From positions 1-41,788 of the IMG/VR virus record IMGVR_UViG_3300013102_000018: 41,788 nucleotides of DNA; one strand, written 5' to 3'. This stretch comes from a virus. The notes beneath the pieces were generated by a model that saw only the letters and a program-made list of their open reading frames with translations, had not been told where the DNA came from and ran no database searches. Position 1 is the stretch's first letter. Each line of letters opens with the position of its first letter. This document shows, one piece after another, positions 11,012 through 26,869 of this stretch. The translations under genes were made by a program, and so were the position numbers.

Positions 11012-11482
11012 ATGAACCTACCCAAAAGCGTGCAGCAGATTGCCGACGTGATAGGAGTATCGCAAACCTTAAAGCTGATTGGCCTGTTGCCGGTCTGTAA
11101 GGTTCGCGATAAACGCTATTCCAAAGCGATCAGTAACCGGATAGTCCTGATTGTTCCCGCCAACCTCAAAGCCGACGATAAGCTGGTTAAGCTGATTGGA
11201 TGGGACGACGCCTACAAACTATCCCGCCACTTTGGCGGTGAGTTTCTTTATCCGGCAACATGTGCCGATATTTACCGCGATTTCCTGAAAGACACAGCCA
11301 TGCGCATGTATCGCGACGGCATGAAGCCCACAGACGTCTCAGAGGCTATGCAGATACCCTACAGAACGATAAGCCGGTGGCTGTCAGATGCCATCCCCCA
11401 CCATGCGCAGGCATACAGTGCTGGTAATATGTTCGACGCAACCGGCAGTAACGTGGGGAAAGGCAACAATGTGGCTATTTGA
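11012..11482 (+). CDS. Helix-turn-helix protein, candidate late-gene activator (Mor/C-like pattern)
   Basis: A 156-residue protein with a clear C-terminal helix-turn-helix at about residues 103-125 (GMKPTDVSEAMQIPYRTISRW) preceded by a beta/loop segment GGEFLYPATCADIYRDF. This order, GG-x2-LY then an (I/L)YRDF helix and an HTH, recalls the Mor/C family of Mu middle and late activators, though overall similarity is unproven. It is the last gene before the lysis and structural genes, where a late activator would be expected. Its own 3' end holds a degenerate copy of the late-promoter element. Whether it binds that element is inference. Confidence 0.65.
   Translation: MNLPKSVQQIADVIGVSQTLKLIGLLPVCKVRDKRYSKAISNRIVLIVPANLKADDKLVKLIGWDDAYKLSRHFGGEFLYPATCADIYRDFLKDTAMRMYRDGMKPTDVSEAMQIPYRTISRWLSDAIPHHAQAYSAGNMFDATGSNVGKGNNVAI
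11388..11431 (+). promoter_or_regulatory. Late-promoter element, degenerate copy 1 (lysis cassette)
   Basis: From 11388 the sequence ATGCCATCCCCCACCATG matches the element family at 16 of 18 positions, but the last three bases of the -35-like hexamer differ (ATGCGC). TAATAT at 11425-11430 lies 16 bases downstream and AATATG 17 bases downstream. The site lies in the 3' end of the HTH gene, about 65 bases before the first lysis gene. The upstream part is conserved while the -35 is poor, as expected if an activator does the recruiting. Confidence 0.55.
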
Positions 11483-11840
11483 ACTATTCGCGACCCGTAT
11501 CGACGTATTGCTGGCAGGTTTAGCAGGCGGCTTTGTGGGTTTACGATTCTATAAGGATTTAACGACGTTTCAGGGACGGATTTACTTTGTTATTTGTGGA
11601 GGATTATCCGGCATGTATGTGGCCCCGTTCGCATACGACTATTACAAACTGGCAGTACACGACCCCGAAGCGAGTAAAAATGCCTTACTGTTTTACGCGC
11701 TGTTTATCGGGATATTCGGCCCCAAGCTGGTTCAGACGATACTCAATGGAATTGAGAACGGCGCAATATGGGAAATCATCAAGGCCAGATTCTGGGGAGT
11801 TATCGAAGCTATTGCCAAAGGCAAAAGCAAGGAAGAGTAA
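11469..11840 (+). CDS. Membrane protein of the lysis cassette, candidate holin or antiholin
   Basis: A 123-residue protein with three predicted membrane helices, near residues 10-25 (LLAGLAGGFVGL), 37-55 (IYFVICGGLSGMYVAPFAYDY) and 65-88 (LLFYALFIGIFGPKLVQTIL), and a basic C-terminal tail (AIAKGKSKEE). ATG at 11469 overlaps the HTH stop and follows GGGGAAAGG. Its place as first gene of a cassette followed by endolysin and Rz/Rz1 points to control of membrane permeabilisation. A second membrane protein follows directly; which is holin and which antiholin cannot be told. Confidence 0.7.
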   Translation: MWLFELFATRIDVLLAGLAGGFVGLRFYKDLTTFQGRIYFVICGGLSGMYVAPFAYDYYKLAVHDPEASKNALLFYALFIGIFGPKLVQTILNGIENGAIWEIIKARFWGVIEAIAKGKSKEE

Positions 11841-11842
11841 CC

Positions 11843-12190
11843 ATGTTTATCAAAGCGAACACGTTAGAATCAATCTATCAGGCGAGCGGCATTATCGGCG
11901 TTTCACTGATCCTGTTTTACTGCGTTGTGCAGATATTCGATCCACGCGTCAAAGAAGGCGCGCTGGGCGGTATCTTCTACATGGTCATTGCCAGCAGTTG
12001 TGTGGCGTGGCTTTTCCATATGTTCCAGGGCACCTTCCCGCACCGCACCACCATTACGATGATTTGCGGGATTGCTGCGCTAATGACCCGTCGTTTAATC
12101 CTGTTATCACCGGGCTGGATGCGCTTTAAGGCATGGTGGTTTATTCAGGCAAAGGCCGCAAAGGCCGAAAACCTCAACCGGAGGAAGTAA
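11843..12190 (+). CDS. Second membrane protein of the lysis cassette, candidate holin
   Basis: A 115-residue protein with predicted helices at about residues 14-34 (ASGIIGVSLILFYCVVQIF), 45-63 (GGIFYMVIASSCVAWLFHMF) and 68-86 (TTITMICGIAALMTRRLIL), then a basic tail (KAAKAENLNRRK). Three helices and a charged cytoplasmic tail suit a class I holin, and the endolysin gene begins three bases after its stop. ATG at 11843 follows AAGGAAGAG. A longer frame upstream overlaps the previous gene and is not needed. Confidence 0.72.
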   Translation: MFIKANTLESIYQASGIIGVSLILFYCVVQIFDPRVKEGALGGIFYMVIASSCVAWLFHMFQGTFPHRTTITMICGIAALMTRRLILLSPGWMRFKAWWFIQAKAAKAENLNRRK

Positions 12191-12192
12191 CA

Positions 12193-12672
12193 ATGGCACG
12201 TATTTCAGCAGAAGCAGCAGGCGGCCAGAACGTTATCGCGTTTCTGGACATGCTCGCGTTTTCCGAAGGCACCGACAACGGCAGGCAGAAGACCAAAGAC
12301 AACGGCTACGACGTCCTGGTGGGCGGACAGCTGTTTTCAGGCTATGCAGATCACCCGCGCAAACTGATCCGCATTGATAGCCTCAAAATCAACAGCACCG
12401 CAGCTGGACGCTATCAGGTGCTGTCCCGTTATTACGACGCCTACAAAAAGCAGCTGGGCCTGCCTGACTTTGGCCCGGTATCGCAGGACAAAATCGCGCT
12501 GCAGATGATGCGGGAATGCCGTGCCATCGCCATGCTGCAGAAGGGAGACATTAAAAACGCGATTATGGCCTGCGCCAGTCGCTGGGCATCGCTGCCTGGT
12601 GCTGGCTACGGACAGCACGAACACAAAATGGACGTGCTGATTGAGCAATGGCGCAAGGCCGGGGGCAAATAG
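12193..12672 (+). CDS. R: Endolysin, lambda R-type lytic transglycosylase
   Basis: A 159-residue protein, close to the 158 of lambda R. The segment FLDMLAFSEGTDNGRQKT with catalytic Glu near residue 25, then GYDVLVGGQLF, DHPRKL, AGRYQVLSR and WASLPGAGYGQ, reproduces the lambda R pattern. It cleaves the glycan strands of peptidoglycan once the holin opens the inner membrane. There is no signal peptide, so it depends on the holin for export. ATG at 12193 has GGAGGAAG upstream. Its end lies three bases before the Rz start. Confidence 0.95.
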   Translation: MARISAEAAGGQNVIAFLDMLAFSEGTDNGRQKTKDNGYDVLVGGQLFSGYADHPRKLIRIDSLKINSTAAGRYQVLSRYYDAYKKQLGLPDFGPVSQDKIALQMMRECRAIAMLQKGDIKNAIMACASRWASLPGAGYGQHEHKMDVLIEQWRKAGGK

Positions 12673-12674
12673 CT

Positions 12675-13220
12675 ATGAACGTGGGCAACGTGATAGTGCC
12701 CACGTGGGCCAAATGGGTGGGGCTGGCCGGTGGGCTGGCCCTTCTCATTTTCGCCGCGTGCGTGCTCAATGTGCGCTATTTCATCAATCCAGCCGTTAAC
12801 GCCGAAACGGCCCGCTGGCAGGAAAGATGGGATAAGCGAAACCTGGCTGATGTTAAGGCCAAAGCCGATTTTGACAACCAGAAGCGCGATTATGAGAGGA
12901 AACGACAGGATGAAGTTAACCAGATACAAAAAGACGCCCAAAACGAAGTCGCTCGCCTTGCTGCTTTGCGTGCTGCTGCTGATCGCAATTCTGACAGGCT
13001 GCAGCAGCAAATCAGCGCCGCGATCACCCGACTACGTGCCGGACAGCCTGCCACCGATGCCGCAGGAAGGCAGGCAGGGGATAGCGCCGGACTATTGCTT
13101 ACCCAGCTGTACAGAGAGATTGACGCAACAGCGGGAAGAATGGCGGCAGAGGCTGACAGGGCCAGAGCAGCAGGGCTGACCTGTGAGGCTGTTTTCGATT
13201 CTATGCGTAAACCCAAATAA
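12675..13220 (+). CDS. Rz: Inner-membrane spanin (Rz-like)
   Basis: A 181-residue i-spanin: N-terminal membrane anchor at about residues 13-32 (WVGLAGGLALLIFAACVLN), then a long charged coiled coil in the periplasm (residues about 40-115) and a C-terminal segment ending TCEAVFDSMRKPK, a pattern I associate with DUF2514. It would pair with the outer-membrane lipoprotein encoded inside it to fuse the two membranes at the end of lysis. ATG at 12675 directly follows the endolysin stop; an upstream in-frame codon at 12648 would overlap the endolysin without benefit. Confidence 0.9.
   Translation: MNVGNVIVPTWAKWVGLAGGLALLIFAACVLNVRYFINPAVNAETARWQERWDKRNLADVKAKADFDNQKRDYERKRQDEVNQIQKDAQNEVARLAALRAAADRNSDRLQQQISAAITRLRAGQPATDAAGRQAGDSAGLLLTQLYREIDATAGRMAAEADRARAAGLTCEAVFDSMRKPK
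12910..13179 (+). CDS. Rz1: Outer-membrane spanin lipoprotein (Rz1-like), nested in Rz
   Basis: An 89-residue lipoprotein precursor entirely nested in another frame of Rz. The basic start MKLTRYKKTPKTK, a hydrophobic core and the lipobox LTGC predict lipidation of Cys near residue 31, giving a mature protein of about 59 residues that is Pro-containing, as in lambda Rz1. ATG at 12910 has AGG directly upstream (GACAGGATG), with a purine-rich stretch before it. It anchors in the outer membrane and binds the Rz coiled coil. Confidence 0.92.
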   Translation: MKLTRYKKTPKTKSLALLLCVLLLIAILTGCSSKSAPRSPDYVPDSLPPMPQEGRQGIAPDYCLPSCTERLTQQREEWRQRLTGPEQQG

Positions 13221-13266
13221 CACCCCGGCCCCCCTTGTGGGGGCTATGGCATACAGAGGGCAGGCT

Positions 13267-13530
13267 ATGACTAAGCGACCAATGAACACACCCAGGGCAG
13301 AGACGCAGGAGCAGAGGGACAGGAGGCTTGAGCAGCACCGCGAGGAATGGAGTAAGCGGGGTTACATGCCAATGGCCCTAGAACGCACTGAGAGCGTCGC
13401 TAACACTAAGGCAGTGTACGAGACACATACATGGCTAGACGTGGCAGCAGTGGCGTGCGCAGGAGCTGCAGGCGTGTACATAGTGGCAAGGCTTGCATGG
13501 GTGGGCCTATGCATTGCGATAGGTCAATGA
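13267..13530 (+). CDS. Small membrane protein after the lysis genes (87 aa)
   Basis: ATG at 13267 follows AGAGGGCAGG. The first 50 residues are very polar (AETQEQRDRRLEQHREEW), and a hydrophobic segment near 63-83 (VAAVACAGAAGVYIVARLAWVGL) predicts one membrane helix with the C-terminus close to the membrane. It is separated from Rz by 46 bases containing a GC-rich hairpin (GCCCCC/GGGGGC) without T run. Possibly an accessory lysis or exclusion protein; no family is recognised. Confidence 0.65.
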   Translation: MTKRPMNTPRAETQEQRDRRLEQHREEWSKRGYMPMALERTESVANTKAVYETHTWLDVAAVACAGAAGVYIVARLAWVGLCIAIGQ

Positions 13531-13726
13531 TGAGAATGATTACCATCGACGTGTCAAATGATAACGTTTCTCATTTCAAAAAATTTTTAAGGTACTTCCT
13601 GAGGGGGCAGCCTTGCGGGGGCAGTGCCGCCGCGACAAACGCGCTGTAAGAAGTTTCTTAAAAACCAGTTTTACAATTATAAAGTAACCAGATTAACCAC
13701 TTTTTTCGATTAGAAGGGCCGATGCG
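13531..13726. other. Non-coding region before terminase; candidate cos region
   Basis: No gene is seen. The region holds CGTTTCTCATTTC near 13565, which resembles the lambda terminase R-site pattern (CGTTTC followed by a TTTC run), two GGGGGCAG repeats near 13603 and 13616, a GC-rich inverted sequence near 13620-13645, the inverted repeat AAGAA-GT-TTCTT near 13649, and a possible -10 TATAAA near 13679. In lambda the cos site precedes the small terminase gene, and here the next gene is the Nu1-type small subunit. The nick site itself is not identified. Confidence 0.4.
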
Positions 13727-14263
13727 ATGGCAATACGTGGACAGACAGTCAACCGAACCGATCTGGCGCAGATTTTTGGCGTCTCTATGCCGACCGTCGA
13801 TCGCTGGATTCGTGCAGGCATGCCGGTGCTTTCAGCTGGACGCCGTGGAGTATCGGCGGAATTCAATACGGCGGAATGTTTTGAATGGCTGCGCAATTCG
13901 GCAGTGGACGAAGCCACGGGCAAGGTGATGGCAGACGACGCGACGATAGACCGCCGCATGAAGACCGCCAAAATGGTGCGCGCAGAACTGGACCTGGAAA
14001 AAGAAAAGGGCACGCTGGCCCCGATTGCCCAGATGGAAGCTGCGCTGGCGAATATCTTCGCTAACCTCCGCGCCAAAATGCGCGTTATCCCGAGCCGCGC
14101 TTACGGGGCGCTGGTGGGGGAAGACGACGAAGGGATCTGGAAAGAAACCCTGATGCGGGAGATCGACGGGGCGCTGACCGACACCGCCAATTCGAACCTG
14201 TTTACCGGCCCTATGGATGAACTGGAGGCGGAAGACGATGGCGACGACGAAGACGAAGAGTAA
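13727..14263 (+). CDS. Terminase small subunit (lambda Nu1-like)
   Basis: A 178-residue protein. Residues about 6-35 (NRTDLAQIFGVSMPTVDRWIRAGMP) form the winged HTH of the Nu1 family that recognises the cos region; the body is helical, and the C-terminal 15 residues are almost all Asp and Glu. ATG at 13727 has AGAAGGG at good spacing. It forms the packaging motor with the large subunit, whose gene overlaps its end by 26 bases. Lambda Nu1 is 181 residues, so the length fits. Confidence 0.9.
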   Translation: MAIRGQTVNRTDLAQIFGVSMPTVDRWIRAGMPVLSAGRRGVSAEFNTAECFEWLRNSAVDEATGKVMADDATIDRRMKTAKMVRAELDLEKEKGTLAPIAQMEAALANIFANLRAKMRVIPSRAYGALVGEDDEGIWKETLMREIDGALTDTANSNLFTGPMDELEAEDDGDDEDEE

Positions 14264-16421
14264 AAGGGCGAAGCCAGCGGCAAAGCCACAACCAAAGGCA
14301 GAGGATTACGGCCAATTCCGTAACCTTGCTGGGATCCTGTCTGCCGTCAAACGTGCGCAGCGCAACCTGATCCCGCCGCCCGTGATGCTGCCCAGCGTCT
14401 GGGCTGAGAAGAATATCAAGATTCCGACCGGCAACGCCGTGCCGGGGCCGTACCGCATCCACAACGCCCCCTATCAGCGGGAGCCTATGGACATGCTGGT
14501 GCAGCAGGACTGCTACCGCGTAACCCTGATGTGGGGCGCGCAGGTGGGCAAGACGCTGCTGGCGCTTTGCGTGCAGGCGTATTGCATCGGGGCAAGCCCG
14601 CGCAGCCATATGATGATGCAGCCCAGCGAGAACGATTTAGGCGTGTGGCTGGAGACGAAATTTAACCCCCTGGCGGAAGACTGCAGCGCCGTGGCTGACG
14701 CGCTGGGCCAGGGCAAAGTCGATAACAAAAAAATGAAGGGCTATCCTGGCGGGTTTTTAATGTTCGCGTGGGCTGGCTCGCCTAAAACGATGCGTGGACG
14801 TTCTGCGCCAACCATCGTGTGCGATGAGGTGGACGGCTACGAACGCACGAACGAGGGGCACCCGGTTAGCCTGCTGTGGCAACGTTCTGCGACCTTTGGC
14901 GATATTCGCTTCCTGATGGATATATCGACACCCACGATCAAAGGGGAAAGCTACATTGAAAAATCGTTTGAAGCTGGCGATCAGCGTCGTTTCTATGTGC
15001 CTTGCCCACACTGCGAATCGCATGTGCTGCTGGAGTGGGAGCACATCCACTGGCCTGGCCGAATGGGCAGCGACGAAGAGAACGCCAAAGCACTGGACGA
15101 AATGGAGCCAGAAAAGGCCCATTTCCACTGCCCGGACTGTGGCGCGCAGTGGACAGACGGCCAGCGCATTGCGGCGATACGCAAAGCGGAATCAGTAGGG
15201 GCTGGCTGGAAAGCCACACGCCCGTTTACCGGGCACGCCAGTTACCACCTGAACGAGCTGTACAGCACTTTCCGCAAGATACCGGCGATCGTGCGGGACT
15301 ACATCGACAAGCTGAAAACCGACGACCTGCAGACCTTCTACAACGTCTCGCTGGCGCTGACGTGGGACGAAAAAGGCGAGAGCGCAGACCCGGACAGCCT
15401 GATGGCCCGCCGCGAGATTTACAGCGAAGATGGATCCTTTGACGTACCGGCCGGCGGCTTGTATCTGACAGCCGGGATCGATATGCAGATCGACCGTCTG
15501 GAATGTGAGGTGGTGGCGTGGGGGCTGGGCGAAGAAAGCTGGAGCCTGGGTTACTGGGTATTCTGGGGCGATCCGCTGACCGGCGACCCGTGGGATCAGC
15601 TGGACGACCTTCTGGAAAGCCATTTTATCCACGAAACCGGCGCGAAGCTGCGCATCATGGGCGCATGCCTCGATACGGGCGGTACCAACGGAATGACGTC
15701 TGCGGCCTACGCCTATGCGAAGGGCCGTACTGGCCGCCGCCTCTTTGCGATAAAAGGCGTGCCCGGATGGGGCAAAGCGGTGGCAGAGAAGCCCAGCCGC
15801 CGCCAGTCTGGTAAAGACACCCGCAAAGTGGACTTGTGGCCGATCGCGGTTGACGAAGGAAAGTTGATTGTTACGCGCCGCCTGAACAAGACGGAGGCAG
15901 GCCCGGGTTATTGCCACTTCCCGGACGATCGACACGAAGAATGGTTTAACCAGCTGACAGCGGAAAAAATGGTCACTAAATACGTTCGCGGGCAGCCGGT
16001 TCGCGAGTGGAAAAAGCCAGACCGCGCCCGAAATGAGGCGCTGGACTGCCGCGTGTACGCTTATGCCGCCCTGAAAATTACCGCCCCCCGCCTGCTTAAG
16101 ATTGCCCAGAGGCTGGGAATTGATACCACTGGCGCAGAACCAGAGCGCCGCAAGAGGCTTAAAACCGTGCCAAAAATGCCAAAATCCGAGACAGAATTGC
16201 CACAAACCGCAACAGAGGTACCAGAAACGCCAGTTTTAGCCAGCTTTGCGCCACAACCGGAGGAAAACGAACCAGTGGAGGTGGTGCCGAATGCCATCCC
16301 GCACAATGACAAACCAGCCACAAAAAAGCAGAATCGACCACGCTTACAATCAAAAGCCGTAGCCGGGAAGAAGGCAAAAAAAGCCGGTGGCGGCGCTAAC
16401 TGGGTGAAAGGGGGCTGGTGA
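14238..16421 (+). CDS. Terminase large subunit (lambda gpA family)
   Basis: A 727-residue packaging ATPase/nuclease. The Walker A-like WGAQVGKT is near residues 99-106, TIVCDEVDGY near 193-202 is the Walker B segment, two CxxC pairs (CPHC near 256, CPDC near 299) suggest a zinc-binding insertion, and TAGIDMQIDRLE near 411-422 supplies a nuclease Asp. It cuts concatemeric DNA and pumps it into the prohead. The last 70 residues are a low-complexity linker containing NAIPHND, where late-promoter copy 2 is embedded. ATG at 14238 is preferred over 14217 because GGAGG lies 9 bases before it. At 727 residues it is longer than lambda gpA (641), mainly at the C-terminus. Confidence 0.92.
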   Translation: MATTKTKSKRAKPAAKPQPKAEDYGQFRNLAGILSAVKRAQRNLIPPPVMLPSVWAEKNIKIPTGNAVPGPYRIHNAPYQREPMDMLVQQDCYRVTLMWGAQVGKTLLALCVQAYCIGASPRSHMMMQPSENDLGVWLETKFNPLAEDCSAVADALGQGKVDNKKMKGYPGGFLMFAWAGSPKTMRGRSAPTIVCDEVDGYERTNEGHPVSLLWQRSATFGDIRFLMDISTPTIKGESYIEKSFEAGDQRRFYVPCPHCESHVLLEWEHIHWPGRMGSDEENAKALDEMEPEKAHFHCPDCGAQWTDGQRIAAIRKAESVGAGWKATRPFTGHASYHLNELYSTFRKIPAIVRDYIDKLKTDDLQTFYNVSLALTWDEKGESADPDSLMARREIYSEDGSFDVPAGGLYLTAGIDMQIDRLECEVVAWGLGEESWSLGYWVFWGDPLTGDPWDQLDDLLESHFIHETGAKLRIMGACLDTGGTNGMTSAAYAYAKGRTGRRLFAIKGVPGWGKAVAEKPSRRQSGKDTRKVDLWPIAVDEGKLIVTRRLNKTEAGPGYCHFPDDRHEEWFNQLTAEKMVTKYVRGQPVREWKKPDRARNEALDCRVYAYAALKITAPRLLKIAQRLGIDTTGAEPERRKRLKTVPKMPKSETELPQTATEVPETPVLASFAPQPEENEPVEVVPNAIPHNDKPATKKQNRPRLQSKAVAGKKAKKAGGGANWVKGGW
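16291..16334 (+). promoter_or_regulatory. Late-promoter element, copy 2 (head genes)
   Basis: ATGCCATCCCGCACAATGAC starts at 16291; its end forms ATGACA at 16306-16311 as a -35-like hexamer. Exactly 17 bases later is CAGAAT (16329-16334), four of six matches to the -10 consensus. Transcription would begin near 16341, about 80 bases before the head-tail joining gene. The site is inside the terminase large-subunit gene. Confidence 0.72.
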
Positions 16422-16960: not shown

Positions 16961-18522
16961 AGTTATTTAACTGGGGCCGCAAGGCCAAAGAGCCGGAGCA
17001 GAAAAAGCGCAGCCGAATTCCCCCACGTTTCGGCCAGCGCCTTTTCGATGCCGCGAAGCCCGATCGAATGTCGATGGAGTGGGGCAACGACCCGCTGACA
17101 GCCGACGAAATCATAGCCAAAAACTGGCAGCCGCTTGTCGCTCGCAGCCAGGAGCAGATCGCCAACAACGACTATGCGAAACACTTCGCGCGACTGGCCC
17201 GCCAGAACATCGTCGGGCAGAACGGGATCCTGTTAAACGCCCGGGCTAAGTCTGGCAAGGGTAAACTGGATAAGAGCGCCAACGACGCGATCCAGCGTGC
17301 GTGGGCTGAATTCTGCAAGCGGGAAAACATCGACATTACCGGCAAAAAGTCGATGCGAGAATTCCAGAATCAGCTTGTAAACAGCCTGGCGAGTAGCGGC
17401 GAATTCCTCTGCAGGAAGGTTTACGGGGCCGACGCTGGGCCGTTCGGCTTTTCACTGCAGGCGATCCCAGCGCAGCGCGTGCCCATTGAAATGGTTATTG
17501 ACCGCCTGAACGGCGGTACCAACTTTGTGCGGTTCGGTATTGAGTACACCCAGTATGGCAAGCCGGTGGCGTACCATTTCCGCACCCTGCTGAGCGATGC
17601 CGATCGCTACATGTACAGCGGCAAGCCTTACGTGCGCGTACCGGCTGACGAAGTGATCCACGTTTTCCGCGAAGAAATCCCCGGCCAGCGTCGCGGGCTG
17701 CCGTGGCTGGCGACGTCGCTTTACCGCATGCGCCAGATGAACGGCATGGATCAGGCGGCTTTGGTGAACGCCCGTACCGGTGCGGCGAAGTTGGGCTGGA
17801 TCTCGTTTGAAGGTGAGAGCGACGGCCCGGAATACGATGAAGACGACCCGCCAGTGGTGGATATTGAGCCAGGCGAAATGGGCATCTTGCCGAAAGGCGC
17901 GCGCGTGGAGAAATGGGATCCGCAGTACCCCAGCGGCGAGTATGCGATTTTCGTTAAAAACCAGCTGCGCGGCATCGCTGCAGGTCTGGGCGTGGCATAC
18001 AACAATCTGGCGCAGGATCTGGAAGGCGTTAACTTTTCCAGTATTCGGCAGGGCACGCTGGACGAACGCGAGACGTGGAAGGATTTACAACAGTTTGTTT
18101 GTGAAGAATTCCTGCAGCCAGTATTCGACGCCTGGCTGCCGCGTGCTTTACTGGCCGGCCTGATCGTGACCGACAACGGAAAGAGCCTTAACCCGGTAAC
18201 GCTGACGAAATATCAGGATATTTTGTGGCAGCCGCGCCGCTGGGCATGGATTGACCCGGTTAGCGACGTTAAAGCCAGCGTAGCGGCCAAAAATGCCATG
18301 CTTAAGTCGCCTTCTGAACTTATCCGCGATAGCGGACAGGATCCGGACGAAGTGGTGCAACAGATTGCGCAGGATATTAATACGCAGCTGGAAACGTTAA
18401 TGGCTGCTGGCCTGAGTAAGAAAAATGCGGAAAATCTGGTAATGTCTGGTTACGCCGTGGACCCTAAAATGATGCAGGAAGAGGCAAGCCCTAATGAACA
18501 AACGAAAACTACTGGCGCTTAG
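16957..18522 (+). CDS. Portal protein (lambda gpB family)
   Basis: A 521-residue portal of the lambda gpB type (lambda gpB is 533). Typical segments include LFDAAKPDRMSMEWG near residues 29-43, ADEIIAKNWQPLVARSQEQIANNDYA, VIHVFREEIPGQRRGLPWLA near 231-250, and GVAYNNLAQDLEGVNFSSIRQG near 346-367. Twelve copies form the DNA channel at one capsid vertex and bind the terminase. ATG at 16957 overlaps the previous stop. The last 29 bases overlap the capsid fusion gene. Confidence 0.93.
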   Translation: MKLFNWGRKAKEPEQKKRSRIPPRFGQRLFDAAKPDRMSMEWGNDPLTADEIIAKNWQPLVARSQEQIANNDYAKHFARLARQNIVGQNGILLNARAKSGKGKLDKSANDAIQRAWAEFCKRENIDITGKKSMREFQNQLVNSLASSGEFLCRKVYGADAGPFGFSLQAIPAQRVPIEMVIDRLNGGTNFVRFGIEYTQYGKPVAYHFRTLLSDADRYMYSGKPYVRVPADEVIHVFREEIPGQRRGLPWLATSLYRMRQMNGMDQAALVNARTGAAKLGWISFEGESDGPEYDEDDPPVVDIEPGEMGILPKGARVEKWDPQYPSGEYAIFVKNQLRGIAAGLGVAYNNLAQDLEGVNFSSIRQGTLDERETWKDLQQFVCEEFLQPVFDAWLPRALLAGLIVTDNGKSLNPVTLTKYQDILWQPRRWAWIDPVSDVKASVAAKNAMLKSPSELIRDSGQDPDEVVQQIAQDINTQLETLMAAGLSKKNAENLVMSGYAVDPKMMQEEASPNEQTKTTGA

Positions 18523-20692
18523 TCTGGCCGCGATTATCGGCTGCAGCTTTACGCGAGCTGCGACCGCTGAGCAGCTGGATCTGGCCCGAGTCAACCGCGA
18601 CCTGCCCGCGCAAACGCGCGATATGCAGATCGACAGCGTGGACAAAGAAAAACGCACGGTGCAGATCTCGTTTTCCAGTGAGCACCCAGTGCGCCGCTGG
18701 TACGGCAACGAGATTCTGGATCACAGTCCCGGCGCGGTAGACTTTACGCGGCTGGAGTCTGGCGCAGCTGCCCTGCTGGTGGATCACAACTGGCAGGATC
18801 AGGTGGGCGTTATCGAACGCGCCTGGCTGGGTGATGACCGCCGCTGTTATGCTATCGTGCGCTTTGGCAAGAGCGCCCGCGCAGACGAAATTTTTAACGA
18901 TGTGATCGACAAAATCCGCACGCTGGTTAGCGTTGGCTATCAGGTACTCGAAGCCAAATTGTCAGTAGAGCGCGAGGACGGCGAAGATGACTACCTTATG
19001 ACGCGCTGGCTACCATATGAAATCAGTTTCGTATCGGTACCAGCCGACCATACGGTGGGGGCTGGGCGTGCTGCCCCATTTAATGCCATCCCGCACAATG
19101 ACAGCGGATCAAATCCTGTTAATAATGGCCGTCAAGGTGAAAAACCAACAGCGGCGAAACCTGAACCCGGAGCAAGAAAGATGGAAAAGAACGTTTACGA
19201 TACTGACGGTAACTACGTTCGCGCGATCGTTGATGAAAACGACAAAATCCTGCGCGTACTCAAAGTTATCCGTATGAATACGAATAACGACGACGGTCAC
19301 GGCGGCGGTAATCGTACCAATCCACCAGGCGGCGCAGAAGGTGGCGAACGCACGGCTGCGCAGGTACTGGAAGACGAACGCACCCGCGTGCGTGAGTTAA
19401 CCACGATGGGCACCAGCTACAACCTGCCAACCGAAGCAGCCCGCGCCGTTGCTGATGGCATTACCGTTGAAGCATTCCGCGCGATCGCGCTGGACGCCAT
19501 CAACACCCGCCAGCAGCAGCAACCGGGTACCCGCCAGCCGCGCACCCGTGGCGCAGCGCCAGCCGGTACCGGCGAGCGCGGCACCCCGCTGGCAGAGATG
19601 GACAGCCCGGAAATCGGTCTGAGCGACGAAGAAGTGCGAAACTATTCGATCTTCAACGTTGTTCGCCACCTGTCAAACCCTACCGACATGCGTCTGCGTG
19701 AAGCGGCCAGTTTTGAGCTGGAATGTTCGGAGACGGCCCAGCGCCAGACCGGACGTAATGCCCAGGGCGTACTGATCCCGCAGGACGTGCTGCAGCGTTT
19801 CGGTAACGAAGCCACCATGCGCGCGTTTAACGCAGGCGGCGCGGCTGATACACCTACCGGCGCAGTGACGGGTAAAAATCTGGTAGCCACCAACTACATG
19901 GCGTCCAGTTTTATCGACCTGCTGCGCCAGCGCACCGTGATTATGCAGCTGGCCCGCACTATGGGCGGTCTGGTGGGCAACGTGGAGATTCCGAAACAGA
20001 TCGCCGGTTCGCAAGCGTACTGGATCGGTGAGCACGAAGACGCGCAGGAAACTACACCAGTAATCGGCCAGATCGGCCTTAATCCGCACACCCTTGCGGC
20101 TTATACCGATATTTCCCGCCGCCTGCTGATGCAGTCTACCCCCGACGCGGAAGGCATCGTGCGTGCTGACCTGATCGCCGCCATCGGTAGCGGCATCAAC
20201 GCCGCAGCCTTCTACGGTACCGGCGAAAACAACCAGCCTCTGGGCCTGTTGAATCAGGATGGTATTAACGCGGTAGGATTCGCCAACGCCAGCCCGACTT
20301 TTGCTGAGCTGGTGGAAATGGAATCAGCGATCGCAGCTGATGACGCCGACGTTAACAGCATGGCTTATGTGATTAACACCGCGCAGCGTGGCTACTTCAA
20401 AACCACGCCTAAGCTGGCCGGTGGTTCTGACCAGGGCTTGATCTGGGAGCCAGGCAACGGCCTGAACGGCTACCGTGCGGAAGTGACCAACACCATTAAA
20501 GCCGGTGATGTTTTCTTTGGTAACTTCAATGACCTGATCATCGGTATGTGGGGCGGCCTGGATCTGATTGTTGACCCGTACAGCCTGAGCAAAAAAGGTG
20601 CACTGCGTCTGGTAGTATTCCAGGATGTGGATTTTGCACTGCGCCGCGTGGAGTCATTCACCTACGGCCATAAAGCCGCAGTGACCGCGTAA
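18494..20692 (+). CDS. Prohead protease-major capsid protein fusion (HK97 type)
   Basis: A 732-residue fusion. Residues about 44-190 are an HK97-type prohead serine protease (VQISFSSEHPVRRWYGNEILDH, His in LLVDHN near 98, Ser in VSVGY near 147, PYEISFVSVPAD near 174-185). Residues about 195-370 are a charged, low-complexity linker or scaffold rich in Arg, Gln and Gly. Residues about 372-732 are an HK97-fold major capsid protein, including GQIGLNPHTLAAYTDISRRLL and WGGLDLIVDPYS. The N-terminus is odd: a basic and hydrophobic stretch ending IIGC, resembling a lipoprotein signal. GAGGCAAGCC precedes the ATG at 18494. An internal promoter and start (19083, 19181) may yield extra capsid protein. 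Confidence 0.92.
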   Translation: MNKRKLLALSLAAIIGCSFTRAATAEQLDLARVNRDLPAQTRDMQIDSVDKEKRTVQISFSSEHPVRRWYGNEILDHSPGAVDFTRLESGAAALLVDHNWQDQVGVIERAWLGDDRRCYAIVRFGKSARADEIFNDVIDKIRTLVSVGYQVLEAKLSVEREDGEDDYLMTRWLPYEISFVSVPADHTVGAGRAAPFNAIPHNDSGSNPVNNGRQGEKPTAAKPEPGARKMEKNVYDTDGNYVRAIVDENDKILRVLKVIRMNTNNDDGHGGGNRTNPPGGAEGGERTAAQVLEDERTRVRELTTMGTSYNLPTEAARAVADGITVEAFRAIALDAINTRQQQQPGTRQPRTRGAAPAGTGERGTPLAEMDSPEIGLSDEEVRNYSIFNVVRHLSNPTDMRLREAASFELECSETAQRQTGRNAQGVLIPQDVLQRFGNEATMRAFNAGGAADTPTGAVTGKNLVATNYMASSFIDLLRQRTVIMQLARTMGGLVGNVEIPKQIAGSQAYWIGEHEDAQETTPVIGQIGLNPHTLAAYTDISRRLLMQSTPDAEGIVRADLIAAIGSGINAAAFYGTGENNQPLGLLNQDGINAVGFANASPTFAELVEMESAIAADDADVNSMAYVINTAQRGYFKTTPKLAGGSDQGLIWEPGNGLNGYRAEVTNTIKAGDVFFGNFNDLIIGMWGGLDLIVDPYSLSKKGALRLVVFQDVDFALRRVESFTYGHKAAVTA
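19083..19126 (+). promoter_or_regulatory. Late-promoter element, copy 3 (internal, before the capsid part)
   Basis: ATGCCATCCCGCACAATGAC from 19083, the -35-like ATGACA at 19098-19103, a spacer of exactly 17, and AATAAT at 19121-19126 (five of six matches to the -10 consensus). It lies in the linker between protease and capsid domains, reading NAIPHND in the same frame as the copy in terminase. The start site would be near 19133, just upstream of an in-frame ATG with a ribosome binding site. Confidence 0.75.
19181..20692 (+). CDS. Internal in-frame start giving scaffold plus major capsid protein
   Basis: Within the fusion gene, ATG at 19181 (residue 230, MEKNVYDTDGNYVRAI) is preceded by CCGGAGCAAGAAAG, a good ribosome binding site, and lies about 48 bases after the predicted start of late-promoter copy 3. 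The shorter product of 503 residues would hold the linker and the capsid domain but no protease. This resembles lambda, where the scaffold Nu3 starts inside the protease gene C. The start is inferred from sequence signals only. Confidence 0.5.
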   Translation: MEKNVYDTDGNYVRAIVDENDKILRVLKVIRMNTNNDDGHGGGNRTNPPGGAEGGERTAAQVLEDERTRVRELTTMGTSYNLPTEAARAVADGITVEAFRAIALDAINTRQQQQPGTRQPRTRGAAPAGTGERGTPLAEMDSPEIGLSDEEVRNYSIFNVVRHLSNPTDMRLREAASFELECSETAQRQTGRNAQGVLIPQDVLQRFGNEATMRAFNAGGAADTPTGAVTGKNLVATNYMASSFIDLLRQRTVIMQLARTMGGLVGNVEIPKQIAGSQAYWIGEHEDAQETTPVIGQIGLNPHTLAAYTDISRRLLMQSTPDAEGIVRADLIAAIGSGINAAAFYGTGENNQPLGLLNQDGINAVGFANASPTFAELVEMESAIAADDADVNSMAYVINTAQRGYFKTTPKLAGGSDQGLIWEPGNGLNGYRAEVTNTIKAGDVFFGNFNDLIIGMWGGLDLIVDPYSLSKKGALRLVVFQDVDFALRRVESFTYGHKAAVTA

Positions 20693-20705
20693 TAACCACC
20701 CCGGA

Positions 20706-20729: not shown

Positions 20730-20751
20730 GCACTGAACTGGAGTTAAAAAA

Positions 20752-21210: not shown

Positions 21211-21216
21211 GCCGCT

Positions 21217-21564
21217 ATGAGTAAACCCGCCTGGGAAAACCTGGGCGTGTTTTATCAGTCGGATAGAAAGGGCGGCTTTGCTAAAGCTGCCTTTTTTTTT
21301 AAGGCTGATGGCACGCCAGTGAATACAGAAGCTGTTTACGTGTTGTACGACGAAGCAAAGTACGACGCTAACGCAGGTGAATACGATTTCGAAACCAGCC
21401 AGCCGCGCCTGATGATGGAGGATTTGCCAATCTGGCGAACGCTGACCAAAAAAGACAAGGTGCAGATCGAGGATGAGGGCTTATTCATTCTGGAAGAGCA
21501 CGCGCGCCCGGACGGTACCGGCAACGTAACGATCGATCTGGCCCCGCAAGATGCTTACCTTTGA
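21217..21564 (+). CDS. Head-tail joining protein, gpFII-like
   Basis: A 115-residue beta-rich protein. The arrangement of an internal beta segment (LYDEAKYDANAGEYDFETSQ), IWRTLTKKDKVQIEDEGLF and a final EEHARPDGTGNVTIDLAP resembles small head-tail attachment proteins of the lambda FII type, and the position after capsid and before gpZ agrees. A run of nine T residues near 21292-21300 encodes Phe-Phe-Phe and could be a slippage or sequencing weak spot, but the frame is intact. Its 3' end overlaps the next gene by 14 bases. Confidence 0.6.
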   Translation: MSKPAWENLGVFYQSDRKGGFAKAAFFFKADGTPVNTEAVYVLYDEAKYDANAGEYDFETSQPRLMMEDLPIWRTLTKKDKVQIEDEGLFILEEHARPDGTGNVTIDLAPQDAYL

Positions 21565-22102: not shown

Positions 22103-22695
22103 TGCAAGACAACTACCCCGAAACCGATCTGGCCATTTTCTTTCAGGCCATTGTTAAAGACATTAAAGAGCGTTTCCCGTCGCTGGTGAACGTCGAATTT
22201 TTCCCGGATGAACCGGAAGCCAACACCCGCATGCCAGTGCCCGCGTGCCTGCTGGACGTGTCGGAAATGGAAGTGGATCTGGATGAAGACCCGGGAACCG
22301 GCCAGACGCCCACGCGACTGTCTTTTTCCGCATTCCTGGTTATCAGCGGGCTGCAGGATGGCAACACGAAGCTGCAGATCAGGCTGATGGCTGCCGCGCT
22401 GGTATCGTGGCTTAAAATGCGACACTGGCGCGACCCACGCGACCCGGGCACCGAAGAAGAACCCAACCACCTGCCGAGCGACCCGGCTATGCCGGTGGGA
22501 GCGTACAGGGATGATTTCGACCCACGGCTGGATCGTTATGAGGTATGGCGCGTTGACTGGGAGCAGGTTATTTATCTGGGCAAAAGTGATTTTGATTCCA
22601 GCTTTCTGCCGTCTCGCGTATGGCTGGGGCTTGATCCGAACATCGGAGCAGAGCACCGAGAAGACTACGTGGAGATTACCGGCAATGGACAGTAA
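22099..22695 (+). CDS. Tail terminator/completion protein (unidentified, 198 aa)
   Basis: ATG at 22099 (or 22102) overlaps the gpZ-like stop. The protein is acidic and mixed alpha/beta: an N-terminal helix (AIFFQAIVKDIKERFPSLVNVEFFPDEPE), a strand PACLLDVSEMEVD, and a later RYEVWRVDWEQVIYLG. This order resembles the gp37/DUF1834-type or tail-terminator proteins of Mu- and lambda-like phages, which cap the tail tube. Position just before the P2-like tail module supports a joining role. The family is not firmly recognised. Confidence 0.6.
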   Translation: MMQDNYPETDLAIFFQAIVKDIKERFPSLVNVEFFPDEPEANTRMPVPACLLDVSEMEVDLDEDPGTGQTPTRLSFSAFLVISGLQDGNTKLQIRLMAAALVSWLKMRHWRDPRDPGTEEEPNHLPSDPAMPVGAYRDDFDPRLDRYEVWRVDWEQVIYLGKSDFDSSFLPSRVWLGLDPNIGAEHREDYVEITGNGQ

Positions 22696-23332
22696 CGAAC
22701 TATTCCAGCGCCTCGATGGCGTAATAAAAACCGGTTATATCCGCAACGTTGACCCGGACGCCAAGCAGGTGCGCGTTGCGGTTGATGGCAACGTTACCGG
22801 GTGGATTGATTGGGGCGTATGGCGTGCTGGCCTGCTTAAAGTCTGGAGCTGTCCGGATCGTGGCGAAAAGGTGCTGATCGCAGCACCGGCCGGCGACCTT
22901 TCGATGGCTGTAGTTTTATGCAGCCTGTACAGCGACAACGGCGGCGAATCGCCCAGCAGTAACCCGGAAGAAACTTACATTAAATTTCCGGACGGAAGCA
23001 CGCTGGTTTATAACCACGGCGAAAACGAATTTAATCTGGTAGTGACCGGCCAGGGGATCGTTAAGATAACCTGCGTATCTGCCCACGTGACCGCGACTGA
23101 TGCCATTACGCTGGACGCGCCGGAAACGCTGGTAACGGGAAACCTTACCGTTAAGCAGAAGATCACCGGGCAGGGCGGCATGGGCGTTTCTGGTGGTGCT
23201 GGTACCGTGGCGCAGTTTGCCGGGAATGTTCAAGTAAACGGCGGCGACCTTAAAGCCGATGGTGTAGGGGTTAAATCACATAGCCATCTTGAGCAGGGCG
23301 ACGGCAAAATGGTAGGACCGGCGCAAGGATAA
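22685..23332 (+). CDS. V: Baseplate spike protein, P2 gpV-like
   Basis: A 215-residue protein (P2 gpV is 211). It has an N-terminal OB-like domain (IRNVDPDAKQVRVAVDGNVTGWIDW), then a repetitive beta-helix region (VTGNLTVKQKITGQGGMGVSGG), and a C-terminal GVKSHSHLEQGDGKMVG. The H-x-H motif is where P2-type spikes bind the iron ion at the membrane-piercing tip. Start at 22685 overlaps the preceding gene by 11 bases and has GGAG upstream. Confidence 0.92.
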   Translation: MDSNELFQRLDGVIKTGYIRNVDPDAKQVRVAVDGNVTGWIDWGVWRAGLLKVWSCPDRGEKVLIAAPAGDLSMAVVLCSLYSDNGGESPSSNPEETYIKFPDGSTLVYNHGENEFNLVVTGQGIVKITCVSAHVTATDAITLDAPETLVTGNLTVKQKITGQGGMGVSGGAGTVAQFAGNVQVNGGDLKADGVGVKSHSHLEQGDGKMVGPAQG

Positions 23333-23375
23333 TGCCATCCCCCACAATGACAGGATAGAGGGCAGTAAATATGAT
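23332..23375 (+). promoter_or_regulatory. Late-promoter element, copy 4 (baseplate genes)
   Basis: The element starts at 23332, two bases after the start of the V stop codon, with one change (C for G at position 11). ATGACA at 23347-23352, a 17-base spacer, and TATGAT at 23370-23375 (five of six) complete the promoter. The -10 overlaps the ATG of the W gene at 23371, so a transcript starting near 23382 would skip that ATG. Confidence 0.75.
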
Positions 23376-23709
23376 AGGCATGAGCCGTAAAACAGGGCGT
23401 CAAATGTCAGGCGTAGCGCATCTGCAACAGTCGATAACTGACATACTGACCACGCCAAAGGGCACCAGGATAATGCGAGCCGAATATGGCAGCGACCTGC
23501 CCAGGCTGGTGGATCTGCCGGTAAATGGTGAACTGATGATTGATATTATCGCCGCTACAGCTGACGCAATAAAAAAATGGGAACCGCGATTCGATGTTTC
23601 GCAGGTTACTTTTTCAACCATTACGGAATCCCAGGTAATCATTTCCCTTTCGGGGAAATATTTGCCGGAGGGTAAAGACGTAACACTGGAAGGGATCGTG
23701 GTGAAATAA
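23371..23709 (+). CDS. W: Baseplate wedge protein, P2 gpW / T4 gp25-like
   Basis: A 112-residue protein matching P2 gpW (115): GMSRKTGRQMSGVAHLQQSITDILTTP near the start, then RAEYGSDLPRLVD, a helix, and KKWEPRFDVSQV. It belongs to the gp25-like baseplate wedge family at the sheath-baseplate contact. ATG at 23371 fits the family alignment and has GAGGG 8 bases upstream, yet it overlaps the -10 of late-promoter copy 4; W may therefore be translated from upstream messages while the promoter serves J and later genes. ATG codons at 23380 and 23404 are alternatives. Confidence 0.9.
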   Translation: MIGMSRKTGRQMSGVAHLQQSITDILTTPKGTRIMRAEYGSDLPRLVDLPVNGELMIDIIAATADAIKKWEPRFDVSQVTFSTITESQVIISLSGKYLPEGKDVTLEGIVVK

Positions 23710-24623
23710 TGGCGGCAATAGACTTTTCAAAACTTCCGGCACCGGCCGTAGTTGAAACGCTGAGTTATGAAGACATTCTGGCAGAGCGAAAAGCCGCCCT
23801 GCTGGCTCTTTATGCAGAAGATACGGAAATGCAGGAGCAGATCGCCGCCACGCTTGAATTAGAATCAGAGCCGCTTACCAAACTACTCGAAGAAAACTCC
23901 TACCGTGAAATGATCTGGCGCGCCAGGGTGAATAATGCGGCCGTTAGCGTCATGGTAGGTTTTGCAACCGGGACGGATCTCGAACAGCTGGCCGCTAATG
24001 TGAACCTGACGAGGCTGATTACCCAAGCTGCAGACAATACAGTTATTCCCGTAGTGGAAGAAAAAAAGGAAAGCGACGAAGAGTTAAGAGCGAGAATCGT
24101 TGACTCTTACGAGGGTTTGAGCGTGGCAGGTCCGGCAGGATCTTACGAGTTTCACGCGCGAAGCACCGATGGGCGGATCCTGGATGTAAAAGCCATCAGC
24201 CCTTCCCCTGCGGTAGTAACTGTTTCTCTGCTGGCGCGCGCAGGTGACGGAACCGCGCCTGCAGATTTGATCTCTGCTGTAAACACCGTGCTAAATGGCG
24301 AGGATGTTCGCCCTGTTGCTGACAGGGTTACAGTGCAATCCGCGGCGATTGTTAATTACTCAATAAACGCAGTTATTTTTCTTTACCCAGGCCCGGAAGC
24401 TGAGCCAATACGACAGGCCGCGATTGCCAGGCTTCAAACCTACATCCAGTCACAGCGTAAAATAGGACGCGACATAAACCGATCTGCAGTTTTTGCTGCT
24501 ATCCATGTGGAAGGTGTGCAGCGAGTAGAGCTTTCACTGCCAGCAGCTAACCTGGTTATCAGTGACACGCAGGCGGCATATTGTACTGGTTATACGATAA
24601 CTGTCGGAGGCACCGATGAGTAA
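23709..24623 (+). CDS. J: Baseplate wedge protein, P2 gpJ-like
   Basis: A 304-residue protein (P2 gpJ is 302) of the baseplate J family: AIDFSKLPAPAVVETLSYEDI at the start, MIWRARVNNAAVSVMVGFATGTDLEQLAA near 70-98, ESDEELRARIVDSYEGLSVAGPAGSYEFHA near 118-147, and AVVTVSLLARAGDGTAP. It forms part of the wedge ring that triggers sheath contraction. The start overlaps the W stop (TAATG), and the end overlaps the I gene. Confidence 0.94.
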   Translation: MAAIDFSKLPAPAVVETLSYEDILAERKAALLALYAEDTEMQEQIAATLELESEPLTKLLEENSYREMIWRARVNNAAVSVMVGFATGTDLEQLAANVNLTRLITQAADNTVIPVVEEKKESDEELRARIVDSYEGLSVAGPAGSYEFHARSTDGRILDVKAISPSPAVVTVSLLARAGDGTAPADLISAVNTVLNGEDVRPVADRVTVQSAAIVNYSINAVIFLYPGPEAEPIRQAAIARLQTYIQSQRKIGRDINRSAVFAAIHVEGVQRVELSLPAANLVISDTQAAYCTGYTITVGGTDE

Positions 24624-25227
24624 AGGGATCCTGCCTTCAAACTCAACCAAATTAGAGATACTGGCGGCGCAGGCGCTGGATAAAGTAAAGAGAGTTCCAA
24701 TCCCTATTTCATCCCTTTACAACCCAGATACCTGCCCTGTGGATTTACTGCCATATCTGGCGTGGGCGTGGTCGGTTGACCGCTGGGATCCGGAATGGTC
24801 TGAGCAGACCAAAAGAAACGTAATTAAGGCATCCTATTCTGTACACAAAAGGAAAGGCACTATCGGATCGCTGCGGCGAGTTGTTGAGCCTTTGGGGTAT
24901 CTGATAAAGGTAACTGAGTGGTGGCAATACAATGGTGATCCTGGCACGTTTAAACTGGATATTGGCGTACTTGACACCGGTATCACAGATGAAATGTATC
25001 AGGAGATGGAGCGGCTAATAAGCGACGCCAAACCAGTTAGCCGACACCTTATCGGCCTTTCTATCAAAGCAGAGGTGACGGGAACGGAGTATATCGGAGC
25101 GGGATTAATGAGCGGCATGAATACAACCGTGTACCCGTACCAGCCCGAAGATGTGGTTATAAGCAGCCCACTATACATGGCGGCATCAGCGGTTATCCGC
25201 GATGCTGTTTCTATTTATCCGCAGTAA
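24616..25227 (+). CDS. I: Baseplate/tail protein, P2 gpI-like
   Basis: A 203-residue protein with the gpI hallmarks: LLPYLAWAWSVDRWDPEWSE near 38-57 and KASYSVHKRKGTIGSLRRVVEPLGY near 70-94. P2 gpI is 176 residues; the extra length is at the C-terminus. It links the baseplate wedges to the tail fibres. It overlaps J by 8 bases. Confidence 0.93.
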   Translation: MSKGILPSNSTKLEILAAQALDKVKRVPIPISSLYNPDTCPVDLLPYLAWAWSVDRWDPEWSEQTKRNVIKASYSVHKRKGTIGSLRRVVEPLGYLIKVTEWWQYNGDPGTFKLDIGVLDTGITDEMYQEMERLISDAKPVSRHLIGLSIKAEVTGTEYIGAGLMSGMNTTVYPYQPEDVVISSPLYMAASAVIRDAVSIYPQ

Positions 25228-25239
25228 ACAGGTGAAGAA

Positions 25240-26373
25240 ATGGCAGCGACATTTTACACATTACTAACAAAGCAGGGGCTGGCTGCAGTGGCGAATGCTA
25301 CCGCGCTTAACACCCCGGTTAACTTAACTAAAATGGCGGTGGGCGACGGCGGCGGGGCGGCGACCACGCCGAAAGAAACGCAGACAGCCCTGGTAGCGCA
25401 GAAATACTCTGCCAACCTTAACCAGTTAACGATTGATACCAGCAACCCGAACTATCTGATCGCGGAAATGATCATCCCCACAACCGTTGGCGGGTGGTAT
25501 GTGCGAGAAGTGGGCATTTTCGACAGTGCCGGTAATCTCTTTGCGATCGCTAACTTTCCGGAAACCTATAAGCCGCAGCTGGCGGAAGGTTCGGGCCGTG
25601 ATCTGGTTATTCGTATCGTTATCCAGGTATCAAACGCCAGTGCAGTAACGCTGCAGGTTGACCCAGCAGTTACGCTGGCAAGTCAAGCCTGGGTCACTGC
25701 TAATTTCGTTGCAAAATCGAAAGTATCAGGCGGTGCAGTCGGGCAGGTGCTGGCAAAATCAAGCGCAACAGAACAGGATTACGGGTGGAAAAACCCGACT
25801 GATTTGATTGAAACTGCAAGCCTGACAAAGAAGGGTATTGTCCAGCTATCCAGCACCGTAGAAAATAACGCAACTAAAGCAGCCACTCCAGCGGCTGTCA
25901 TGAATGCACAATCAGCCACCCTTTCCGAAACAGACAAGCGCTATCTTTCTATTGGAAATCAGTTAATTGAATTACTTAATTTAGGAGCCACCGCGCAAGC
26001 CAATGCAAGATACAATATCGGATGTGGGACGGCAGCAGTAAAAAACGTTGGCGTTTCCGCTGGCAATATTCCCGACATGTCTAGCTTTGCCAGCTTACAG
26101 ACGGCAAGCGGTTATCAACAATTGCCTGGTGGATTGATAATCCAATGGGTAAATGCATCCGCACCAGATGGCGCTACCAGTGGGTCAGTAAATCTGCCAA
26201 TGGCATTCCCTAACCAGACACTTCTGGCAATTATTTGTGACTCAATAACTACCGGCTCGCCCGGAAGTTTTAACCTTGCCTGGAGTATGAATTCCACCAC
26301 GAAAAATGCTGTTTCATGGGTCTCAACAGCCGCGGGCGTAGGCGCTTTTACAATTCTTGCGATAGGTAGATAA
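25240..26373 (+). CDS. H: Short tail fibre protein, P2 gpH-like N-terminus with a different tip
   Basis: A 377-residue fibre. Residues 1-150 are the P2-type fibre attachment domain (FYTLLTKQGLAAVANAT, LTKMAVGDGGGA, WYVREVGIFD). The middle is a short phase-variable-like shaft (SLTKKGIVQLSSTVENNATKAATPAAV). The C-terminal ~85 residues (LPGGLIIQWVNASAPDG...AFTILAIGR) resemble the gp53-like fibre tip seen in many enteric phages and should bind the host receptor. P2 gpH is 669 residues, so the shaft is much shorter. From about 25920 on the sequence is more AT-rich than its neighbours, consistent with exchange of the receptor-binding tip. Confidence 0.88.
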   Translation: MAATFYTLLTKQGLAAVANATALNTPVNLTKMAVGDGGGAATTPKETQTALVAQKYSANLNQLTIDTSNPNYLIAEMIIPTTVGGWYVREVGIFDSAGNLFAIANFPETYKPQLAEGSGRDLVIRIVIQVSNASAVTLQVDPAVTLASQAWVTANFVAKSKVSGGAVGQVLAKSSATEQDYGWKNPTDLIETASLTKKGIVQLSSTVENNATKAATPAAVMNAQSATLSETDKRYLSIGNQLIELLNLGATAQANARYNIGCGTAAVKNVGVSAGNIPDMSSFASLQTASGYQQLPGGLIIQWVNASAPDGATSGSVNLPMAFPNQTLLAIICDSITTGSPGSFNLAWSMNSTTKNAVSWVSTAAGVGAFTILAIGR

Positions 26374-26374
26374 A

Positions 26375-26782
26375 ATGACTAAATATTACGCTGCTTCAAC
26401 AAACGGTTTTTACTCGAAAGAAATACACGGCGATGAAATTCCGGCTGATTCTGTTGAGATAACTGATGAAGAATGGATTGCTTTATTGGAAGGGCAGGAG
26501 AAAGGAAAGCTGATAACTGCTGACAAAAAAGGCAATCCGATATTGCAAGACTATCCCGCACCAACAGCCGATCAAGTTATCAAAATGGCTGCTGCTGAAA
26601 AAACAAGGCTTCTGGCCCTTGCTACGGTTAAGATAGGTCCATTGCAGGACGCAGAAGATCTTGACATTGCAACTGCTGAGGAAGCAGAAAACCTTAAGAA
26701 GTGGAAAAAATACCGTGTTTTACTTAACCGAGTGGACACAAACACTTCTGACGATATTTCATGGCCGGTGGCCCCCGAATAA
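26375..26782 (+). CDS. G: Tail fibre assembly chaperone (Tfa, P2 gpG-like)
   Basis: A 135-residue Tfa-family protein: short N-terminal beta region (YYAASTNGFYSKEIHGDEIPADSVEIT), then DEEWIALLEGQEKGKLITADKKGNPIL and a long helix with KKWKKYRVLLNRVDT near the end. It assists trimerisation of the adjacent fibre, with which it probably exchanges as a pair. It begins one base after the fibre stop. Like the fibre tip it is relatively AT-rich. Confidence 0.9.
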   Translation: MTKYYAASTNGFYSKEIHGDEIPADSVEITDEEWIALLEGQEKGKLITADKKGNPILQDYPAPTADQVIKMAAAEKTRLLALATVKIGPLQDAEDLDIATAEEAENLKKWKKYRVLLNRVDTNTSDDISWPVAPE

Positions 26783-26800
26783 CTTTGCTGTCGCATTTTG

Positions 26801-26825
26801 GCCCGCCTAGCGCGGGCATTTTTTT
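26801..26825 (+). terminator. Intrinsic terminator between fibre and sheath operons
   Basis: GCCCGC / CTAGC / GCGGGC followed by A and seven T residues. Its T run ends directly at the first base of late-promoter copy 5, so one transcription unit ends exactly where the next begins. Confidence 0.92.
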
Positions 26826-26869
26826 ATGCCATCCCGCACAATGACTTTGTACTGTTGGCGCGTCATTAT
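26826..26869 (+). promoter_or_regulatory. Late-promoter element, copy 5 (sheath and tail genes)
   Basis: ATGCCATCCCGCACAATGAC at 26826-26845 followed by T, so the -35-like hexamer is ATGACT (26841-26846); then exactly 17 bases and CATTAT at 26864-26869 (four of six). The start would be near 26876, about 35 bases before the sheath ATG. It is intergenic, so coding constraint cannot explain the conservation. Confidence 0.78.

Follow-up and report, generated by a model that had tools for sequence, protein, structure and literature searches.

Putative activator-dependent late promoters, repeated at five fixed loci and divergent between lineages, in small-genome myoviruses

Under lambda Q-type control a single long late transcript is made from one promoter, and in phage P1 one small phage activator, Lpa (gp10), serves several late promoters through a site that is an inverted repeat near -22. 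The Mor- and C-dependent promoters of phage Mu have an activator site upstream of and overlapping the -35 position, with a -10 present and a poor -35 (PMC4287176; PMC4461284), and the Mor dyad at Pm spans -51 to -36 (PMC4287176). The virus genome analysed here (the window, 41,788 bases in full) does not meet Q-type control, since it has five repeated promoter-like sites, and does meet the Mor/C-like layout, with an element at -50 to -31, a -10 hexamer at fixed spacing in 46 of 50 sites and a -35 hexamer in which only GA is invariant. We regard it as very probable that the five elements make up a single late regulon, each of them an activator-dependent promoter read by the product of the gene at 11012.

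Five element copies among the late genes

An exact 123-base repeat at the ends of the window (1-123 and 41666-41788) indicates that the assembly is complete or circularly closed. By protein matches its nearest relatives are small-genome myoviruses, the Iiscvirinae and related genera (ep3, Bas97, Arya, PPpW-3, FoX). The late genes run rightward in the order lysis cassette, terminase, portal, protease-capsid fusion, baseplate and sheath, and the genes needed below are as follows.

11012-11482, + strand: late activator gene with a C-terminal HTH, inferred to encode the cognate regulator; matches phrog_836 'late transcriptional activator' (E=1.1e-19)
After 11482: lysis cassette
14217-16421: GpA-type terminase gene (terL)
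18494-20692: Peptidase_S78/Phage_capsid fusion gene, 732 residues
23371-23709, + strand: baseplate wedge gene (gpW/gp25); GPW_gp25, E=1.6e-14
26869-28335: Phage_sheath gene, with the sheath ATG probably at 26911

A 20-base element is present in exact copies at 16291, 19083 and 26826, with a single change at 23332, and in a degenerate copy with 4 mismatches in 20 bases at 11388; all five sites lie on the + strand.

11388-11407, + strand: element copy 1 (degenerate), lying in the activator gene's 3' end and assigned to the lysis cassette
11426-11431, + strand: -10-like AATATG of copy 1 (or TAATAT, one base earlier); predicted start near 11438
16291-16310, + strand: element copy 2, within the 3' end of terL
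16329-16334, + strand: -10-like CAGAAT of copy 2; predicted start near 16341
19083-19102, + strand: element copy 3, in the protease/capsid linker of the fused head gene
19121-19126, + strand: -10-like AATAAT of copy 3; predicted start near 19133
23332-23351, + strand: element copy 4 (one change); its first base is also the final base of the spike gene's stop codon
23370-23375, + strand: -10-like TATGAT of copy 4, overlapping the wedge start codon at 23371; predicted start near 23382
26826-26845, + strand: element copy 5, before the tail sheath gene
26864-26869, + strand: -10-like CATTAT of copy 5; predicted start near 26876

The first-pass annotation had reported four good copies and the degenerate one at 11388, and these positions are confirmed: allowing up to 3 mismatches, four matches are found against 0.01 expected by chance, and none of 100 shuffles reached four. 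Its further statement that the elements precede the lysis, head, capsid, baseplate and sheath genes agrees with the gene identities obtained from protein matches. The position of copy 1 is matched in ten other phages. When element and -10 are scanned jointly on both strands, the five sites score 28-39 bits and the next best place 13.8; a simple sigma70 scan by itself was uninformative (16 found, 12 expected). The hexamers CAGAAT, AATAAT, TATGAT and CATTAT each begin exactly 38 bases past the first base of the element, as does AATATG at the 11388 copy. The fixed spacing claimed in the first-pass annotation thus stands for the four good copies with one reservation, as TATGAT at 23370 is weaker: the probable wedge start codon lies inside it, and conservation of this hexamer among close relatives is therefore no independent evidence for a -10.

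Element versions and -10 spacing in relatives

An exact-pattern scan of viral contigs recovered the element at the same loci in three other uncultured phages (5, 4 and 3 copies), with about 94%, 74% and 65-80% DNA identity to the window. In these the spacer has drifted while the hexamers at the same distance are kept (CAGAAT/CAAAAT, AATAAT, TATGAT, CATTAT/CATCAT and AATATG). The remaining contigs matching the exact pattern have one copy each, with no -10 at that spacing.

The window's 20-mer is absent from the nine named relatives that carry a neighbouring activator gene (KA2-1, Arya, Bas97, MQ-4, Persinger, PPpW-3, Mica, Mano and FoX5; a tenth, ep3, is close to Bas97), and each of the nine repeats an element of its own at five loci that correspond to those of the window. 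Two of these are the 3' ends of the activator gene and of terL, a third lies within the protease-capsid gene, and the last two precede the wedge gene and the sheath gene. Bases 2-19 of five of these elements read as follows.

Arya: TGACACCCCGCACGAAGA
Bas97: TGACAAACCCCAAGAAGA
Persinger: GGAAATCCCACAAGAGGA
Mica: GGAAATCCCACGGGAGGA
FoX5: GGAAATTCCGGACATGGA

Elements are 94% identical within a genome (98% excluding the activator-gene copy) and only 65% identical at the same locus between phages, whereas the 18-base spacers are 31-39% alike in both comparisons. Since the elements are alike within a genome and divergent between phages, the sites change jointly and are held by a shared reader rather than by local conservation, so that the single promoter sequence family envisaged in the first-pass annotation gives way to versions particular to each lineage, all five loci of a genome changing in step. 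Alexa has only three of the five copies. The three coding copies do share a reading frame (encoding NAIPHND-like peptides), as would be expected if the repeats were a shared peptide motif, or mobile or gene-converted sequence, with no regulatory role; we think there is next to no chance of this, as two copies are non-coding, the spacers diverge while element and -10 stay, and the -10 lies outside the repeat.

A further 25-30 or so lineages from proteobacterial hosts, found by searching bacterial genomes and viral contigs for the activator protein, have a shared element at the activator end, the terL end and the head gene, with the same -10. The collection search used an alignment of six of the 12 activators, all 12 being without a conserved stretch, and the host names in the records include Burkholderia, Cupriavidus, Microvirga, Massilia and Marinobacterium. 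There are two exceptions: L073 keeps the element intact at terL and head with no -10 at the usual spacing, and L084 has one copy without a -10.

With the first base of the element as base 1, 46 of 50 sites from ten phages have nAnnnT beginning at base 39, and in three more it is shifted by one, to base 40; the median count elsewhere is two, and the sigma70 -10 score has its sole peak at the fixed offset (z=6.5). The promoter reading of the first-pass annotation would have been refuted by relatives that kept the element without the -10 at its spacing, and it survives this test. The register between phages rests on elements aligned by eye; the constancy of spacing within each genome is independent of it. 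If base 51 is numbered +1, the hexamer occupies -12 to -7, with A(-11) and T(-7) conserved, and the element occupies -50 to -31. T is scarce at -12 (one of 50 sites), and we give this no weight because T is rare across the whole spacer.

The -35 hexamer ATGACA belongs to the window lineage only, and other phages have AAGAAG or AGGAAC in its place. Only the central GA is invariant across phages, coinciding with the GA of TTGACA at a 17-base spacer, and the rest of the hexamer is lost outside the window lineage. The first-pass annotation had proposed an activator site from -36 to -50 followed by a -35. An upstream activator site is retained; because only the GA of the hexamer is invariant, however, the activator element extends over the whole 20-mer, to about -31, rather than ending at -36. 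Among 34 distinct elements four positions are invariant (A6, C10, G18 and A19), and dyad symmetry as in Mor/C sites was not found in them: the best complementarity is 38%, off-centre, and that at the centre 16%. A 15-base direct repeat within the element (bases 2-4 against 17-19) was rejected, its similarity between genomes nearly equalling that within genomes.

In VP882 and phiHAP-1 the terminase, portal, head, baseplate and sheath genes follow one another as in the activator phages, and a Q-like antiterminator is annotated. The best shared 18-mers of these two phages over four loci score 36 and 38 of 54, the level of shuffled sequence, where phages with the activator score 46-54. This control bears on the possibility that the elements are segregation, packaging or replication sites, for example for a ParB-like protein, rather than promoters. 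Several named relatives do have an annotated ParB-like protein, and each genome has multiple identical sites, but the sites have a single orientation, always just before late operons and with a -10 at fixed distance in nearly all of them, and the element is missing from the two phages in which Q-type control replaces the activator. We accordingly give that possibility very little credence.

The neighbouring activator gene

In the window and its relatives the activator gene stands directly before the lysis genes, and one copy of the element always lies within its 3' end or next to it. The protein from the window has matches to phrog_836 and HTH_23 and none to the Mor profile. Mu C and Mor match phrog_836 over their C-terminal half (E=2.1e-11 and 1e-10), their own family being phrog_532. 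A FoX-type relative passes the curated cut-off of Pfam Mor (PF08765) with 33.1 against 24.9 bits, and the other relatives fall below it; hhalign of the activator set against a Mor/C set gives a probability of 28% and a pairwise E=6e-4. A structure predicted from 36 sequences (pLDDT 84) places the HTH at residues 106-124. Foldseek against the PDB with this model found nothing at E<=0.001, and none of the 50 entries listed was Mor; a sequence search of solved structures gave generic HTH matches only; a single-sequence model (pLDDT 51, no useful matches) was discarded. On these comparisons the 11012 product may be a distant Mor/C-type activator, its membership of the Mor/C family not having been shown.

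Across 43 lineages, and with N-terminal domain distance allowed for, differences in the recognition helix (residues 116-124) are matched by differences in bases 2-6 of the element (partial r=0.57; 0 of 2000 permutations). Element bases 7-19 track the N-terminal domain and not the helix, which may reflect contact or merely ancestry. Helices of the form RxVxN go with elements containing GGAAA (20/1/5/17, Fisher p=1e-6), the two being concordant in 37 of 43 lineages, with 9-10 changes on the tree of the N-terminal domain. In one pair, L056 and L057, the N-terminal halves are similar and the helices differ (TEQHVRFIV and SDRQVRNIC), and the sites differ too (GAAGAACC and GGAAATCC). The permutation and Fisher tests leave some shared ancestry, and only three independent pairs lie on well-supported branches, too few for a formal test, so the covariation of helix and site is strong evidence and not proof. 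Together with the phrog_836 match it bears out the suggestion of the first-pass annotation that the 11012 gene encodes a regulator, although regulation is inferred in the absence of binding data.

For the same want of binding data, the elements could be promoters whose reader is another phage regulator, a modified polymerase or a host factor, with the phrog_836 gene a mere neighbour. Other small HTH proteins are present in these genomes, and L091, L095 and similar phages keep the element without the HTH. We nevertheless judge another reader improbable, given that the activator gene is a constant neighbour, always carrying a copy itself, and that its recognition helix tracks bases 2-6 beyond the N-terminal domain. 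We note that in L091, L095, L097, L098 and L100 the HTH is replaced by a short AT-hook-like tail (KGGRPKKN), and that these phages still keep element and -10 at the activator, terL and head loci.

If the activator is the reader, the 11012 product, as a distant relative of Mu Mor/C, would be made before the late genes and would bind the element at about -50 to -31, and host sigma70 RNA polymerase would start from a -10 that retains A(-11) and T(-7), without a complete -35. The upstream five bases, about -49 to -45, would be recognised by the C-terminal HTH; recognition of the remainder of the site would fall to other parts of the activator or to sigma region 4, and the latter may contact the invariant GA at -33/-32. 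Under this scheme the lysis, packaging/neck, capsid (from a nested in-frame start), baseplate and sheath operons would be driven from the five promoters. The element, its positions and spacing, its joint change, the covariation and the Q-phage control are all read from sequence, and binding, activation, start sites and timing remain inferences without transcript, binding or reporter data.

Other repeated sequences were seen in these genomes. The AT-rich stretch at 10570-10960, just upstream of the activator gene, has about 12 copies of GGTTACA/TGTAACC and looks like an iteron-type origin for the Toprim primase-helicase encoded at 7504-10287; similar repeats stand at the same place in KA2-1 (GGTGACCA) and Mica (GGTGACA). 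Palindromes of the form [CT]TATACGNNCGTATAG at 1871, 3299, 7220 and 33361 of the window may be operators for an early repressor. In Mica and Mano (L036:41719 and L037:40286) a similar sequence, GTACAATCCC[AG]CA[AC]GTTGAC, stands upstream of the activator gene and is perhaps that gene's own control site.

Predicted use of the promoters and relation to known systems

Three of the loci suggest how the promoters may be used, two features being needed here.

19181-20692, + strand: nested in-frame capsid reading frame, with an ATG preceded by GGAG, 48 nt past the predicted start
26801-26824, + strand: probable intrinsic terminator (GCCCGCCTAGCGCGGGC and a T run), ending just before element copy 5

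In the head fusion the protease part covers residues 78-185 and the capsid part 467-725, with element copy 3 between them. All 12 phages have an in-frame ATG roughly 25-55 bases past the predicted start, in most cases with a purine-rich ribosome-binding sequence, and most of the further lineages agree; in the 12 phages the protein directly after this ATG is conserved and the linker is not. This is most simply read as a nested capsid gene that has a late promoter to itself and a separate predicted product, translation from the nested start being inferred. At the wedge locus the start codon lies 6-8 bases past the -10 in all ten other phages, with no clear ribosome-binding sequence, and we predict that in most phages the wedge mRNA is leaderless, its start codon at the predicted transcript start; this translation too is inferred. 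In the window genus the start codon at 23371 is inside TATGAT, with a GAGGG ribosome-binding sequence before it, so the wedge itself would need an upstream transcript. At the sheath locus, a hairpin and T run similar to the terminator above stand just before the element in nine of ten relatives.

On balance, and with less assurance than for the promoters themselves, we favour a family-wide late regulon in which an activator and five fixed-locus promoters have been re-specified jointly many times. Its sites would be modular, with the HTH reading -49 to -45 and another part the rest; the intragenic promoter would yield nested capsid in excess over the protease-capsid fusion, and most lineages would have a leaderless wedge mRNA. 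Two points are new here: the head promoter lies ahead of a nested in-frame start for the capsid that is conserved, and for most phages the wedge mRNA is predicted to be leaderless. The predicted promoter map covers a widespread group (Jilinvirus, Foxunavirus, Harrisonburgvirus, Hiroshimavirus, Micavirus, Manovirus and prophages), and for the capsid protein a gene within a gene is predicted. The map is absent from the annotations of these phages that we examined, and no description of these promoters was found in the open literature searched, subscription papers lying outside the search. For contractile-tailed phages it would document in nature how a regulator has evolved jointly with its targets, and it touches the old question of how the specificity of a transcription factor changes when several essential sites must change too; as there are some 35-40 natural activator versions, each with up to five near-identical sites, the specificity code should be readable from sequence.

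Among known systems, the Q-type phages VP882 and phiHAP-1 share the structural gene order and have no shared element at these loci. With P1 Lpa the common trait is several late promoters under one small activator, the site lying near -22 in P1 and at -50 to -31 here. In Mu, where the Mor and C activators act with Pm and the late promoters Plys, PI, PP and Pmom, several late promoters are likewise under one activator, the C gene stands directly before lysis genes as the window's activator gene does, and the HTH half of Mu C is homologous to the activator family described here (phrog_836). Membership of the Mor/C group has not been shown, given the lack of a dyad and a family match only in some relatives, and we conclude that the late promoter family works like Mor/C without assigning it to that group. 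Unlike the Mu system, in which C and Mor fall in another PHROG (532), the promoters have no clear dyad in their element; they are five in number, occupy fixed loci that include the insides of terL and the capsid gene, and carry a version of the site particular to each lineage.
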